64,000 bases of DNA from assembly GCA_014359475.1 (NCBI GenBank), contig JACIZI010000013.1, positions 1-64,000 on the forward strand. Reading direction: 5' to 3'. A model generated the notes under the pieces. The model saw nothing but the letters and a program-made list of their open reading frames with translations, did no database searches and was not told where the DNA came from. Source of the stretch: Marinobacter sp. GTDB taxonomy: Bacteria > Pseudomonadota > Gammaproteobacteria > Pseudomonadales > Oleiphilaceae. The translations under genes were made by a program, and so were the position numbers. This document shows positions 6,931 through 61,984 of this stretch, piece after piece; within the stretch, counting starts at the first letter, position 1, and each line of letters opens with the position of its first letter.

Positions 6931-7317
6931 ATGACCGCAGCAGCCACCCGCCAAACCTACAGCATCAGTGAACTGTCCCGGGAATTCGACATCACCACGC
7001 GGACCATCCGTTTCTATGAAGAAGCAGACATGCTGCAACCGGAGCGGCAGGGCCAGGCCCGCGTTTACAGCGACCGCGACCGGATAAAACTGAAGCTGAT
7101 CCTGCGCGGCAAACGGCTGGGGTTCAGCCTGGCGGAGTCGCGGGAGCTCATTGAAATGTACGATCCGGCTTCGGATAACCGGCATCAGCTGGAGGCACTG
7201 CTGGGTAAGATCCGCGAGCGGCGGGAGGCGCTGGAGCGGCAGCTTCTCGACATACGGGCGATGCAATCCGAGTTGGATGAGGCGGAGTCCCGGTGTTTGT
7301 CGGCTCTTTCTGGATGA
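6931..7317 (+). CDS. liuR: LiuR, MerR-family regulator of leucine/isovalerate degradation
   Basis: A 128-residue MerR-family protein with HTH SISELSREFDITTRTIRFYE at residues 11-30, wing RVYSDRDR, and a C-terminal coiled coil. It has no metal-binding cysteine cluster, consistent with a regulator responding to an organic intermediate. Position directly before liuABCDE and the palindrome at 6901-6916 identify it as LiuR. Start ATG at 6931 follows a purine-rich AAAAAAGAAAG. Autoregulation is likely because the operator lies immediately upstream. Confidence 0.88.
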   Translation: MTAAATRQTYSISELSREFDITTRTIRFYEEADMLQPERQGQARVYSDRDRIKLKLILRGKRLGFSLAESRELIEMYDPASDNRHQLEALLGKIRERREALERQLLDIRAMQSELDEAESRCLSALSG

Positions 7318-7668
7318 CTGGTTCGTCTGGCAAAAAGCGGTCTCTTGTTGCGGGGGCAGGAAGCGGTCGGGTAGACCACAGTAAATGGCACCGCTTGTAT
7401 CCGGTCATTCGAAAAGTTACAGGTGCATAACAAAGATGCGGTGTTGGCGCGGACCGTACCGCTGGCATTGGGAGGGCAATAACGGAGTACATCAGAGGGG
7501 ATTGGGAAGCCCTTTCCAAAACCGTGGAGCGCCAGGGATGGCGCGACCCGAGCCCCCCAGGGACGGGTTTACGGGCGTGTTTTGGAAAGGGCTCCCCAAT
7601 CCCCTCCAGCCCCCGAAACCAACAGACACGGGCCCAAGACAAAAGACAACCACCAAGGACAAAACAAG
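7318..7668 (+). other. liuR-liuA intergenic region (351 bp)
   Basis: Bases 7318-7495 hold no gene or clear promoter that I can support. Bases 7496-7605 are the structured repeat described separately. The remaining 63 bases are A-rich leader ending in AAGGA at 7654-7658, a reasonable RBS for liuA. No second LiuR-type palindrome was seen, so liuA may depend on readthrough from the liuR promoter. Confidence 0.6.
7496..7605 (+). repeat. Structured palindromic repeat, family 1, copy 1
   Basis: An outer stem of about 27 bp (one mismatch) ends in CCAAAAC/GTTTTGG and encloses two arms. Arm 1 is GCGCC-AGGGAT-GGCGC (7529-7544). Arm 2 has two stacked CCC/GGG helices with loop AGGGAC (7559-7564) and a 3' bulge TTTAC (7568-7572). 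The core differs from copy 2 (20775-20884) at three bases while the outer stem differs in sequence yet stays paired. Confidence 0.9.
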
Positions 7669-8835
7669 ATGAGCAGCTACACCACTTTGAATTTCAGCCA
7701 CGGCGAAACCATCAATGCCCTCCGGGAGCAGGTCCAGCGGTTCGCGCGGGACAAGATTGCGCCGATTGCGGAGAAAACCGACCGGGATAATGCGTTCCCC
7801 AATGAACTGTGGAAACAGTTCGGCGATATGGGCCTGCTGGGGATGACGGTGAGTGAGGAATATGGCGGCAGCGACATGGGGTATCTGGCCCATGCGATAG
7901 CCATGGAGGAAATCAGCCGGGCATCCGCCAGTATCGGACTGAGTTACGGAGCCCACTCGAACCTGTGCGTGAACCAGATATTCCGCAATGGCACCCCCGA
8001 ACAGCGGGCAAAGTACCTGCCCGAACTGGTCAGTGGTGAGCATATTGGCGCGCTGGCGATGAGTGAACCCAATGCAGGGTCGGATGTGGTGAGTATGAAG
8101 CTGCGGGCGGATCGCAAAGGGGATCACTATGTGCTCAATGGCAGCAAGATGTGGATCACCAACGGGCCGGATGCCAATACCTATGTAATTTACGCCAAAA
8201 CCGATACCAGCAAGGGCGCCCACGGCATGACGGCGTTTATTGTCGAGCGGGAATGGAAGGGCTTTTCCACGGGGCAGAAGCTGGACAAGCTGGGAATGCG
8301 CGGCTCCAACACCTGCGAGCTGATTTTCGAGGATGTAGAGGTGCCTGCGGAGAACGTGCTCGGTGGCGAGAACCAGGGCGTGAAGGTACTGATGTCCGGC
8401 CTGGATTATGAGCGGGTAGTGCTGTCCGGCGGGCCCGTGGGACTGATGCAGGCCTGCATGGATGTGGTAGTACCCTATGTGCACGAGCGCAAGCAGTTTG
8501 ACCAGCCCATTGGCGAATTCCAGTTGATCCAGGCCAAGCTGGCCGACATGTACACGGAAATAGCCGCGAGCCGGGCCTATCTGTATGCCGTCGCCCAGGC
8601 CTGCGACCGGGGTGAGACCACCCGCAAGGATGCTGCCGGCGCCATTCTCTTCACTTCCGAGCGGGCCACAAAGATGGCACTGGAAGCTATACAGATACTC
8701 GGGGGTAACGGCTATATCAACGAGTACCCCACCGGCCGGCTGCTGCGGGATGCCAAGCTGTACGAGATCGGCGCCGGCACCCAGGAAATCCGCCGTATGC
8801 TGATTGGCCGCGAACTGTTCCGGGAATCCGCCTGA
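7669..8835 (+). CDS. liuA: Isovaleryl-CoA dehydrogenase
   Basis: A 388-residue FAD-dependent acyl-CoA dehydrogenase oxidising isovaleryl-CoA to 3-methylcrotonyl-CoA in leucine breakdown. Visible family motifs are [17 protein letters not shown] and [10 protein letters not shown] (FAD-binding middle domain), and [16 protein letters not shown] near the C-terminus. The base-bearing [14 protein letters not shown] region matches isovaleryl-CoA dehydrogenases, where the catalytic Glu sits near residue 250. The ATG at 7669 (MSSYTTLNF) is chosen over an in-frame ATG at 7582 because the latter lies inside the repeat. Stop and liuB start overlap in TGATG. Confidence 0.95.
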
Positions 8836-19391: not shown

Positions 19392-19648
19392 GGGCATGGT
19401 CTGGTTATTAGATTGCTGAGGTACCGAACCAGTGTTAGCGTTAGAAAAGCATGATTTATAAACTACCCAGTCCGGAAACATGCAAATCCCGCATTCAGAC
19501 TGCCGATTGGCACGGAGCCCACTGCCCTTATTTGCATTGGGCAACAGCGGTAAATGGAATCCCACACCCCCTGAACTGGAAAGTTTAAGCGTATCCAATT
19601 AAGCTGCCAGGTCAATGGATTGTTGCACGGAAGCAGGAGGAAACAAGG

Positions 19649-20167
19649 ATGAGCAAACCTATCGTTTTACTGGGCGACCTGGGGCTGGACCACGACGGCT
19701 ACCCGCCCACGCCCGTTATCAGCGGCTCCCCCAATGTCATGGTCGACGGCAAGCCCGTCGCCAGAGTCGGCGACCAACTGGCCATGCACTCCAAGCCGTC
19801 TCACCCACCGCATCCGCGAGCGATTGCAGAAGGATCGTCCACCGTTATGATCAACGGTGTTCCGGCAGCCATCACCGGCGGCAAGGTCAGCTGCGGTGGC
19901 GTTACCGTTGGCAGCGGCAGCGTGGTCATTGGCGACAGCCCCGCAGCGGCGCCGTTTTCGGGCTCCACACCCCTGCCGAAAAGGCCTGAGGCTGCGCCAA
20001 TGGACGGCGAGAAAGCCGCCAAGAAGGTGAAAACAAACGCGGAATCTTCCAGGGCGCACAGCACTCCCCCGCCAGCCCAACTAAAGCAGAAAGAAGGGCC
20101 AACAGGCGAAACTACCACTGCCAACACCAGGCTGCAGCCGAAGAAGATTCCGGGGAACAAAGCGTAG
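19649..20167 (+). CDS. PAAR-domain protein (type VI secretion spike tip type)
   Basis: A 172-residue protein. Residues about 1-100 are a PAAR domain: repeated beta motifs with SPNVMVDGKPVARVGDQ, then HPPHPRAIAEGSSTVMINGV and SCGGVTVGSGSVVIGD, and the conserved His residues expected to bind Zn. The rest is a charged, low-complexity tail. No VgrG, Hcp or other T6SS gene is in the window, so it is an orphan cargo unit. RBS AGGAGGAAAC precedes the ATG. The tail ends at TAG 20165-20167, where another frame carries on into the LysM-like protein. Confidence 0.85.
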   Translation: MSKPIVLLGDLGLDHDGYPPTPVISGSPNVMVDGKPVARVGDQLAMHSKPSHPPHPRAIAEGSSTVMINGVPAAITGGKVSCGGVTVGSGSVVIGDSPAAAPFSGSTPLPKRPEAAPMDGEKAAKKVKTNAESSRAHSTPPPAQLKQKEGPTGETTTANTRLQPKKIPGNKA

Positions 20168-20196
20168 AACCAGGATTCCACATCGTCCGGCAACCC

Positions 20197-20532
20197 ATGA
20201 GCAAAGCTGAGCTTCTGACCCACCTGTACGGGGATGTCTCACTGAAGCCCAATCTGTTTGACGAACTGAATCCACAACTCGGTGAGCATATCCTGCCCGG
20301 ACAGATGGTCGTTCTTGGCGATCCCGAAGGACTCCAATGTACCGCCAAAGAACAGGAGCTCATGACAGCCGCAAAGCAGGTCAATGCCAAGGCCAGTGAG
20401 CTGACGGATGAGGAAGCGCAGTTCGCTGCTGACTATCACGATCTCATCGAAACCCCCTCTGTCAAGGTAGTTGGAACCTCACCTGATGTTAGACTCTCTC
20501 AACAAAGTGGGGCGAGACAGAGGTTTTCATGA
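20197..20532 (+). CDS. LysM-like N-terminal domain protein, candidate T6SS cargo component
   Basis: A 111-residue protein. The start resembles LysM-like modules attached to PAAR/effector proteins (LTHLYGD, ELNPQL, ILPGQMVVLGDP), followed by a short helical region. The frame stays open upstream of the ATG and reads GFHIVRQPM, a typical LysM opening, so the ancestral protein may have been joined to the PAAR protein or started further upstream. The remainder has no domain I recognise. Its stop overlaps the next small gene (ATGA). Confidence 0.6.
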   Translation: MSKAELLTHLYGDVSLKPNLFDELNPQLGEHILPGQMVVLGDPEGLQCTAKEQELMTAAKQVNAKASELTDEEAQFAADYHDLIETPSVKVVGTSPDVRLSQQSGARQRFS

Positions 20533-20693
20533 TTCGACACGTCCCTGTTTTTGGAAGGGATGTGGCTGAAAGAATTGGATCAGAGCCTGAGCCAGTTCCC
20601 TCCGGACTCAAGTGGACAGTAATTGCTCCGGTTTTTCTTTTTTATTTTTTTGGGTTTTCGTTTCTTCTTTCCGGGCTCCTGATGGAACACTGA
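20529..20693 (+). CDS. 54-residue single-TM protein coupled to the LysM-like gene
   Basis: Starts at the ATG overlapping the upstream TGA (ATGA, 20529-20532), which favours translational coupling. The N half is charged (MIRHVPVFGRDVAERIG). Residues about 28-52 form one strongly hydrophobic helix containing VFLFYFFGFSFLLSG, then EH and stop. No family recognised. In a PAAR/LysM setting, small TM proteins can be immunity proteins, holin-like accessories or adaptors; none is proven here. The T-rich coding of the helix is unlike neighbouring GC-rich genes. Confidence 0.55.
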   Translation: MIRHVPVFGRDVAERIGSEPEPVPSGLKWTVIAPVFLFYFFGFSFLLSGLLMEH

Positions 20694-20774
20694 TTCAATC
20701 ATCGTTGTCCGGAGCACCTTGGGGACCCTCTAAAGTAGCCAAGGACCATAGCGATATCACTGCAGTAAACAGCG

Positions 20775-20884
20775 ACCGGGCCGGGGGCGGCTTTCCAAAA
20801 CCGTGGAGCGCCAGGGAAGGCGCGACCCGAGCCCCCCAGGGATGGGTTCACGGGCGTGTTTTGGAAAGCCGCCCCCGGCCCGGT
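20775..20884 (+). repeat. Structured palindromic repeat, family 1, copy 2
   Basis: A perfect 27-bp outer stem (20775-20801 with 20858-20884) encloses the same two-arm core as copy 1: arm 1 GCGCC-AGGGAA-GGCGC, arm 2 with loop AGGGAT and bulge TTCAC. The outer helix begins ACCGGGCC here but AGGGGATT in copy 1, so the stems have changed together. It follows the PAAR cluster in the forward direction. Confidence 0.9.
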
Positions 20885-20923
20885 TGCCTGCACCCATACT
20901 GGCAGGCTAAATAACCGACAAAC

Positions 20924-21277
20924 TCAAAGCCACCGCTTGGGAAAATAAGGCATCCGATCCGACATAGCCTGGGCCATGGCAATAATCCCCCACAGCACAA
21001 ACGACGTGTGCAATACAATTGCCCACACCAGCGCAAAGGTCCAGAAGCCGCCTGTATTGCCCGACATAAACCAGGCCAGTGCCAGGCCAGAGCCTATCAG
21101 CACAGCCCCGATCACCGACATGAACGTGGCAGCCCGGGTATGAGCCCGGCGAATCTCAGGCATATCACCGGCACGGAAGAACTGCGCCAGCAACACGATA
21201 AAACTGATGATCGGCAAGATCAGCAAATTAAGCAGGTACCAGATAATTGGTACGACTGCTCCACTACCGGTTGTCAT
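20924..21277 (-). CDS. Small membrane protein co-transcribed with norQ, unknown function
   Basis: A 117-residue protein with three clear hydrophobic segments (about 8-33, 52-72 and 78-102) and a conserved-looking tail MAQAMSDRMPYFPKRWL. The ATG at 21277 overlaps the norQ end by 14 bp, indicating coupling; a longer frame upstream lies wholly inside norQ. I do not recognise the family. Its position at the end of the nirC-nirF-PhnD-norQ transcript suggests a denitrification accessory role, which is inference. Confidence 0.75.
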   Translation of the reverse strand: MTTGSGAVVPIIWYLLNLLILPIISFIVLLAQFFRAGDMPEIRRAHTRAATFMSVIGAVLIGSGLALAWFMSGNTGGFWTFALVWAIVLHTSFVLWGIIAMAQAMSDRMPYFPKRWL

Positions 21278-60430: not shown

Positions 60431-61168
60431 TCAGTGGTTCAGACTGTCGCAGTAGGCCTGGGCTTTGCTGACATCCAGCGTGCCCTCGTAGATGGCGCGA
60501 CCGGTGATGGCCCCGAGGATGCCCTTGTCGGCAACGGTGGCCAGGCGCTTGAGGTCGTCCATATTGGTCACGCCACCGGACGCGATCACCGGTATACCGC
60601 CCTCTTCCGCCAGCTGGGCGGTCGCTTCCACGTTTACACCCTGCATCATGCCGTCGCGGCTGATGTCCGTGTAAACAATGGCGTCGACACCGTCGCTGGC
60701 GAACCGTTTAGCCAGATCCACAGCCATGACTTCAGAGACTTCCGCCCAGCCATCGGTAGCCACGCGGCCGCCTTTGGCATCCAGGCCGACGATGATGTGG
60801 CCGGGGAACTGTTTGCACACCTGTGTAACAAATTCCGGCTCTTTGACCGCTTTGGTACCGATGATGACCCACTGCACACCGGCCTGCAGGTACGCTTCGA
60901 TGGTCTCTGCAGAGCGGATGCCGCCACCGATCTGGATGGGCAGGTCCGGGTGCTTTTTGGCGATGGCCTTGACGATTTCGCCGTTGACCGGCTCGCCAGC
61001 GAAGGCACCATTCAGGTCCACCAGGTGAAGACGGCGGGCACCGGCTTCGACCCATTTGGTGGCCATGTCGACCGGGTCGTCGCCGAAGACGGTGGAGTCG
61101 TCCATGCGGCCCTGGCGGAGTCTTACGCATTTGCCGTCTTTCAAGTCTATGGCAGGGATTATCAACAT
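60431..61168 (-). CDS. hisA: HisA, ProFAR isomerase
   Basis: A 245-residue TIM barrel paralogous to His[19 protein letters not shown] with Asp8, [20 protein letters not shown] and [11 protein letters not shown]. It performs the Amadori rearrangement of ProFAR to PRFAR. Its 177-bp upstream gap to hisH carries family 1 repeat copy 3. Confidence 0.97.
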
Positions 61169-61218
61169 ATCTCAAAGTCCTTGATACCGGAGTTCACAGT
61201 ACAAAGCCCGCGCTTCGC

Positions 61219-61316
61219 TGGGAGGGAGGCCTTTCCGGGACACGCGGTAAATACGTCCATGTACGCTCGACCAAAACATCCATGTTTTGGACGGTCCCGG
61301 AAAGGCCTCCCTCCCA
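61219..61316 (-). repeat. Structured palindromic repeat, family 1, copy 3 (hisH-hisA spacer)
   Basis: Read on the minus strand it starts with a 23-bp perfect outer stem ending GGGAC/GTCCC, then ACCGT, arm 1 CCAAAAC-ATGGAT-GTTTTGG (61271-61290 on this strand), CGAG, arm 2 with loop ATGGAC and bulge TTTAC, then CGCGTGT. Every helix differs from copies 1 and 2, but linkers, bulge and loops agree. It faces the direction of his transcription. Confidence 0.9.
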
Positions 61317-61345
61317 TCAAATCACTACTTCAGCGATGCCCGCGA

Positions 61346-61984
61346 CTAACGACCACTCCAGTTAGTAAAGTTTTTCAGTAACTGCAGTCCCGCCCGGGCG
61401 CTTTTTTCCGGGTGAAACTGGGCTGCGAAGATGTTGTCTTTGGCCACCGCGGCGGCCAGGTCTATGCCGTAGCGGGTGCGGCCGGCCATGTCGGGGTTGC
61501 CTTCGGCTTCCACGTAATAGCTGTGTACGAAGTAGAAGCGGTCGCCATCGGGTATGTCATGCCACAAGGGGTGGTCAACGGTTTGCCAGACCCGGTTCCA
61601 GCCCATGTGGGGGACTTTCAGGCGCTCGCCGTTTTCGCTGAGGTTGTCGCCAAAGTAGCGGACCTGTGACGGCAGCAGGCCGATGCCCTCTATGCCGCCG
61701 TTTTCTTCGCTGTGGGACATGATGGCCTGCATGCCGACGCAGATGCCGAGGAAGGGCCGGTCCCGGGAGACTTCCCGGACCAACTCGTCCACGCCCAGGC
61801 GGCGGATCTCGGCCATGCAGTCGCGGATTGCGCCTACGCCGGGGAGAATGACCCGGTCAGCTTCGCGTATCTGGTCGGCGTTGTCGGTAACCAGCACCCG
61901 CACATCCGGCGCTACGTGTTCCACGGCCTTGCGGGCGGAGTGCAGGTTGCCCATGCCGTAGTCGATTATGGCAACGGTTTTCAT
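61346..61984 (-). CDS. hisH: HisH, imidazole glycerol phosphate synthase glutaminase subunit
   Basis: A 212-residue class I glutaminase: [25 protein letters not shown], nucleophile LGICVGMQ, and His-Glu dyad in [13 protein letters not shown]. It supplies ammonia to HisF. The gene is separated from hisF by hisA and the repeat spacer. Confidence 0.97.

Follow-up and report, generated by a model that had tools for sequence, protein, structure and literature searches.

What is a sequence that recurs in the gaps between genes, folds each time into the same shape and keeps hardly any of the bases of its long outer stem? The question is raised by copy 1 of a repeat in the window, by which we mean the whole stretch of 64,000 nucleotides of a Marinobacter contig that was analysed. 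The window holds three copies (Table 1), and all of them lie where the original prediction had placed them; copy 3, however, reads in the minus-strand direction. Searching for the common skeleton as a pattern gives three matches in the window against a mean of 0.11 in shuffled sequences, and none of 100 shuffles reaches three. The predicted fold energies of copies 1-3 run from -68 to -89 kcal/mol, with folding z-scores of -7.4, -8.4 and -8.7, and because the opposite strands likewise fold strongly (-7.7 to -9.8), energy alone cannot pick the strand. Genes were called with a codon model trained on the window, and the names hisH, hisA and liuA come from Pfam matches and gene order. On the 3' side of copy 1 the acyl-CoA dehydrogenase gene is followed by a carboxyl transferase gene. 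The surroundings of copy 2 are a long gap, positions 19392-21263, in which no gene was called.

Table 1. Positions of the three copies and their parts, counted from the first base of the window
Feature	Position	Strand	Remarks
Copy 1, whole element	7494..7607	+	From the sequence; covariance model score 122.5 bits
Copy 1, setting	MerR-family gene 6931-7317; acyl-CoA dehydrogenase gene 7669-8835	both +	Element sense to both genes
Copy 1, outer stem, 5' side	7494..7520	+	Pairs with 7581-7607
Copy 1, outer stem, 3' side	7581..7607	+	Pairs with 7494..7520
Copy 1, ACCGT segment	7521-7525	+	Its CG drawn as paired with the CG of CGAG
Copy 1, arm 1	7526..7548	+	Loop motif CAGGGATG at 7533-7540
Copy 1, CGAG between the arms	7549..7552	+	CG:CG pairing drawn from covarying pairs in other copies
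Copy 1, arm 2	7553..7575	+	Loop motif CAGGGACG at 7558-7565; 3' bulge TTTAC
Copy 2, whole element	20773..20886	+	Arm 1 loop motif CAGGGAAG
Copy 2, core from ACCGT to CGTGT, with arms 1 and 2	20800..20859	+	
Copy 3, whole element	61213..61322	-	Between hisH (61346-61984, -) and hisA (60431-61168, -); operon-sense
Copy 3, arm 1	61270..61290	-	Loop motif CATGGATG at 61284-61277
Copy 3, arm 2	61245..61265	-	Loop motif CATGGACG at 61261-61254; bulge TTTAC

Architecture and distribution of the element

The element is a three-way junction of about 110 nt (110-114 nt), built from an outer stem and two arms. The 5' half of the outer stem leads into an ACCGT-type segment and arm 1; a CGAG-type segment then connects arm 1 to arm 2, and CGTGT precedes the 3' half of the stem. 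Arm 2 carries a five-base bulge on its 3' side, often TTTAC or TTCAC. The outer stem is paired over 25-27 bp despite unlike sequences among the three copies, as had been claimed. The shared skeleton is likewise real, but the ACCGT and CGAG segments, described earlier as fixed linkers, are partly a short covarying helix. Across genera the two segments change together (ACCGT/CGAG, ACTGT/CAAG, ACCTT/AGAG, ACCAT/TGAG), the first two bases of the CGAG type covarying with the middle of the ACCGT type, which implies that the junction is made of base pairs and not of fixed linkers; the junction pair counts are consistent at two orthologous sites. The model pairs 30-85 and 31-84, invariant in the model alignment, are better drawn as 30-55 and 31-54.

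Three copies make a far smaller family than the genome holds. A pattern search of the genome gave 44 extracted copies, and the 41 full-length ones were aligned and used to build a covariance model. The skeleton pattern matches 55 times in the whole genome of the window, against 12 times for the reversed pattern, and the covariance model matches 64 times at E<=2.4e-12, a figure that counts at least one element twice because two contigs end in it (the end of C5, and C18). Thus the original prediction was right that a repeat family exists and set its size much too low. Contigs end within outer stems at the end of G000:C5, with G000:C18:59593, and at the end of G000:C14, with the start of G000:C22, so hairpins of this kind evidently break draft assembly. 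C18 contains an exact copy of the final 90 bases of C5; the end of C14 resembles the start of C22 and, with one stem base different, is probably another double listing.

Beyond this genome, 60 of 61 sampled genomes of the genus have a match at E<=1e-8, with between none and at least 61 elements per genome. Matches were found in 47 of 145 genomes of the order (five of the same genus) and in 63 of 369 genomes of the class, both being lower bounds drawn from the best 25 and the best 10 candidates per genome, respectively. Among the matches listed are Marinobacter, Stenotrophomonas, Rheinheimera, Microbulbifer, Cellvibrio, Halopseudomonas, Aquisalimonas, Haliea and Zobellella. With 18 candidates scored per genome, no match came from 199 genomes of the large genus taken as the main Pseudomonas genus, an empty result that proves nothing on its own, and plasmids and phages gave no match to a single copy used as query, a search whose reach is limited by the variability of the stem.

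A comparison with Rfam, which had been suggested with the prediction, matched the element to none of the described families. At the gathering threshold the window gave no match; at a low threshold the surroundings of copy 1 gave seven sub-threshold matches, the best of them microRNA hairpin models and none a Csr/Rsm family, and 13 other loci gave four matches, none of them at an element. No prior description was recognised in the literature searched (titles and the beginnings of abstracts). Neither the Rfam copy nor this literature was found to contain the family. Judging from the aligned sequences, we hold with very high confidence that the copies belong to a genuine structural family of strand-constrained three-way-junction elements.

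Covariation, strand and loops

In the alignment of 41 copies, the share of paired cells is 96.6%, where shuffles give 71.2%; the covariation score of 0.651 compares with 0.167 in shuffles and at most 0.142 for slid structures, and both-sided changes occur at 30 pairs. Since copies within a single genome could be homogenised or copied from one another, sites orthologous between genomes were also examined. The hisH-hisA set of 14 sequences scores 0.629 (0.204 in shuffles) and the set of 17 loci downstream of liuA-like genes 0.534 (0.163 in shuffles). All three structures, those of the two orthologous sets by eye, were drawn in sight of their alignments and so are biased in their favour. Kinship alone may beat shuffles without any structure; the slid controls retain this relatedness and score far lower. 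Five measures were compared, and one of them, the count of additional pair types, did not stand out in two of the three sets, being as high in 56 of 500 shuffles for the 41 copies and in 198 of 500 for the his set. The helices thus covary at orthologous positions, contrary to the outcome that would have spoken against the original prediction, and its proposal that the fold is what selection, or some means of copying, acts upon is borne out by the 41 copies and by both orthologous sets.

The outer stem differs in sequence nearly everywhere among the 41 copies, yet its pairing is kept: Watson-Crick pairs fill 1000 of the 1066 cells at positions 1-26, and the remainder comprises 33 G-T, 3 A-C and 30 other mismatches. 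Pairs 1-16 have no G-T among 656 cells, and pairs 17-26 hold all 33; in a larger Marinobacter set the inner 16 pairs have 14 G-T among 2096 cells. The inner stem therefore appears to prefer strict Watson-Crick pairing. The imperfect pairs also tell the strands apart, because two equivalent DNA strands would predict as many G-T as A-C, and an excess of G-T implies that one strand is constrained when folded. Imperfect outer pairs number 81 G-T against 13 A-C in 131 Marinobacter copies and 89 against 32 in 88 copies of named records among the matches listed, tallies which omit 15 and 6 cut or long copies, respectively. On this evidence from the sequences, the folded form is constrained on the strand that bears the GGA loops; the constraint is most simply read as RNA, with a single DNA strand as the alternative. 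Eight pairs of copies with similar 3' flanks have an outer-stem likeness of 0.40, against an average of 0.44, which is suggestive and comes from too few pairs; the idea that stems change faster than flanks, based on these eight pairs only, was dropped.

Both loops read ANGGAY, closed mostly by a C-G pair, so that the motif is usually CANGGAYG. Across all 41 aligned copies neither arm departs from the C, A, GGA and last G of CANGGANG; N is free, and Y is T or C everywhere save in loop 1 of copy 2, whose CAGGGAAG is the sole motif with an A in that place among the 82 loop motifs. The 145 Marinobacter copies, which are distinct places with one in cut form, carry two CANGGANG motifs in 135 cases, one in 9 and none in 1, those with fewer than two including cut copies and a long variant. 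In 80 named loci from Marinobacter and other genera among the matches listed, 94 of 95 copies have at least two GGA inside the outer stem, a proportion that is partly built in, as the search pattern demanded the arm 2 GGA in at least one copy per locus. The copies of Microbulbifer and Saccharophagus have an altered closing pair in arm 1 and still hold GGA in the loop. The spacing from first to last ANGGA is 23-25 nt in 123 of the 128 distinct copies that have two or more. According to the published accounts, the consensus is CANGGAYG for RsmA and RUACARGGAUGU for CsrA, RNAs selected for binding have loops mostly of six bases, and structures of RsmE show an ANGGAN hexaloop on a dimer with two RNA-binding surfaces. 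A GGA in a loop of this hexaloop type is present in both arms of 41/41 aligned copies; the fit of the loops to the CsrA/RsmA consensus had gone unremarked before.

Two variations on the core were also seen. A long variant occurs at L271:2023-2214, L273:1980-2175 and L028:977-1169 (own genome), in which about 80 extra bases replace the arm 2 loop and several further hairpins are predicted; its segment motif is found at 9 of 315 loci, and arm 2 of the three long copies reads ATGGG or AGGGG, not ANGGA. Among the 41 copies of the window's own genome, a few types of arm 1 are joined to a few types of arm 2 in many combinations, as if cores swapped modules by gene conversion while stems remained local, and 3 of the 17 liuA-downstream orthologues have a different type of core inside similar outer flanks.

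Genomic setting and turnover of sites

All 145 Marinobacter copies are intergenic, with no overlap with a called gene. Among the 43 single copies flanked by tandem genes, 27 are sense and 16 antisense (p 0.13), and all singles with a called upstream gene are sense in 42 and antisense in 26 (p 0.07), the singles including some near contig or locus ends. The stop codon of a sense upstream gene lies 5-110 nt before the element in 34 of 42 singles. Motif searches found partners for none of 18 antisense singles, although one of these, L258:1998, does have a partial partner of the long-variant type. Where two copies are close neighbours (<400 nt), 31 of 32 cases in Marinobacter are ordered minus-then-plus, 50-204 nt apart, as are 12 of 14 in named records among the matches listed, the two plus-plus pairs lying in one locus. 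The divergent minus-plus order thus holds in 43 of 46 cases overall, some places perhaps being shared by the two sets.

The sites of the element turn over between species. The his region was matched in all 61 genomes of the genus, and the element stands between hisH and hisA in 14 of 30 loci examined, operon-sense in 14 of 14; in the 16 unoccupied loci the two genes overlap by 4 bases (10 loci) or are 23-41 bases apart (6 loci). Of 30 liuA-like loci examined, 20 have the element, 19 of these just downstream and 17 of the 19 in sense. The his and liuA sets represent one or a few insertions each and not independent events.

The flanks of 40 copies carry no strongly conserved tag, and some copies share flanks. 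Over 100 bases on the 3' side the composition is A 31, C 32, G 23 and T 14 per cent, a C/A-rich, T-poor stretch that resembles an unstructured Rho-loading region. An intrinsic terminator was rejected, as copy 1 lacks a hairpin followed by a T run and T makes up only 14% of the 3' flanks of the 40 copies. A 5' UTR element was rejected on account of the mixed gene context and the many copies past stop codons.

A candidate RNA ligand of CsrA, its rivals and its relatives

CsrA is thought to be restrained by a few dedicated small RNAs. On balance we lean towards reading the element, from its sequence, as a structured RNA module whose most likely ligand is a dimer of CsrA (RsmA). By closing the three-way junction, the outer stem would display two short hairpins side by side, and each ANGGAY loop, usually closed by C-G, would fit one RNA-binding face of the dimer. 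Each transcribed copy, whether 3' of genes or within operons such as his, would then hold one dimer, and dozens of copies together could form a scattered decoy coupled to the expression of many operons; in cis, the element could protect or expose its host mRNA. With a divergent pair, transcription in either direction would yield one sense copy. The minus-plus order, which puts the sense copy in the distal position every time, is the main feature that this best reading leaves partly unexplained. More tentatively, the elements may be a dispersed, self-spreading family of RNAs addressed to CsrA, so that the level of free CsrA would follow from how much unrelated operons are transcribed in total, and the element would persist by plugging into this regulator; divergent pairs would here let it function in either direction of transcription.

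Several observations weigh against CsrA as the ligand. The sense bias of 27 to 16 is weaker than would be expected of an mRNA element, the near-constant minus-plus order resembles the dimers of mobile palindromes, and the large Pseudomonas genus has no match in 199 genomes at the sensitivity used. Pseudomonas is known for its CsrA-family proteins (PMC7366521). As described, RsmU of Xanthomonas is a precedent for an RsmA-bound RNA cut out of an mRNA 3' UTR, and mutating all four of its GGA abolished neither RsmA binding nor the phenotype; GGA motifs alone therefore do not prove a binding mode. A csrA match is present in 313 of 369 genomes of the class, in 58 of 63 with elements against 255 of 306 without (p 0.085) and, among high-quality genomes, in 51 of 52 against 229 of 262 (p 0.025). 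One genome without a csrA hit has elements (G266, 98% complete in 270 contigs), the element at L251 keeping both loops, and four further element-bearing genomes without a hit are 67-88% complete. This co-occurrence is compatible with CsrA as the ligand and is not strong evidence for it.

It is unlikely, in our view, that the element is instead a non-autonomous mobile DNA recognised as a folded single strand, in the style of REP/REPIN dimers, with a transposase or nuclease binding at the loops and bulge and the resemblance to CsrA sites a coincidence. Such an origin would suit the high copy number, the strictly intergenic placing (0/145 in called genes), the presence or absence at the his site (14/30 loci occupied), the minus-plus order (31/32 in Marinobacter, 12/14 in named records among the matches listed), the mosaic of arm types, the flanks common to some copies and the want of a significant sense bias in single copies, and a single-strand DNA mechanism would likewise yield the G-T excess. 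The number of Y1 transposases, however, is unrelated to the number of elements over 61 genomes (Spearman 0.02, with element numbers of at least 61 at the top), and 17 of the 39 genomes with at least 45 elements have no Y1 transposase; mobilisation by Y1/RAYT enzymes finds no support in these numbers, and another enzyme is possible. Plasmids and phages gave no match to one copy as query, orthologous copies persist with compensated stems that a mere parasite would not need, and chance accounts poorly for ANGGAY in two otherwise unlike arms.

A barrier for RNA stability or processing, like the REP hairpins of 3' UTRs, which would block 3' exonucleases or set RNase cleavage between operon genes and have no role for CsrA, seems less probable still. 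The very stable fold of copies 1-3 (-68 to -89 kcal/mol), the position 5-110 nt past a stop codon in 34/42 sense singles, the presence within the his operon and the lack of a terminator signal at copy 1 all agree with it, but the conserved loops and junction, the spacing of 23-25 nt and the antisense copies are left unexplained. Last, the pairing of the outer stem could come from mutation, through template switching in long inverted repeats that corrects one arm from the other. Inner pairs that vary and are yet free of G-T at all 16 positions in 41 copies, as if intermediates were removed, and contigs that end inside hairpins, a sign of difficult palindromes, would fit such a process. We consider it very improbable: DNA correction does not distinguish the strands and would not be expected to yield more G-T than A-C, the covarying pairs of the short arms and the junction and the conserved loops are unaccounted for, and the larger set does hold 14 G-T among 2096 inner cells.

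If CsrA is the ligand, a two-site module present about 60 times per genome, the his operon included, would be a different way of setting free CsrA and a new connection between repeats and post-transcriptional control. RNAs that bind CsrA may thus be scattered as a set through the genomes of Marinobacter and many of its relatives, and no earlier account of such a set was found in the literature searched. Even without CsrA, a class-wide, strand-constrained structure at such copy number would need explaining.

Among known systems, the Csr/Rsm decoys (CsrB, CsrC, RsmX/Y/Z and RsmU), as published, share with the element several GGA in loops of the CsrA type. The element differs from them in its two sites, its fixed three-way junction and its variable stem of 26 bp, in its dozens of loci per genome and in having no Rfam match; RsmU, by its description, is reported from Xanthomonas only. 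The REP, BIME and REPIN sequences of the GTAG and CGTC families are likewise dispersed, hairpin-forming and often arranged in inverted pairs, and head-to-head dimers dominate most of these REP families in the published survey (PMC3733652). The element has such paired inverted copies (43/46) and lacks the short tagged palindrome: a REP unit spans 20-40 bp and bears a GTAG or CGTC tag, whereas the present unit, at about 110 nt, has two arms, ANGGAY loops and a 26 bp stem that varies. In P. putida KT2440, intergenic regions beside ISPpu8, one of them a long palindromic region, are described as targets of RsmA, RsmE and RsmI (PMC7937890). Identity with these regions is unsupported, as the large Pseudomonas genus, inferred to include P. 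putida, has no match in 199 genomes; going by their description, they probably belong to another family and may be a second, unrelated tie of Rsm proteins to repeats. The E. coli sRNAs from rRNA operons (PMC8144298), although reported from three loci and in a different setting, are like the element as we propose it to work, in that they interact with CsrA (in vitro) and are carried in another transcript.
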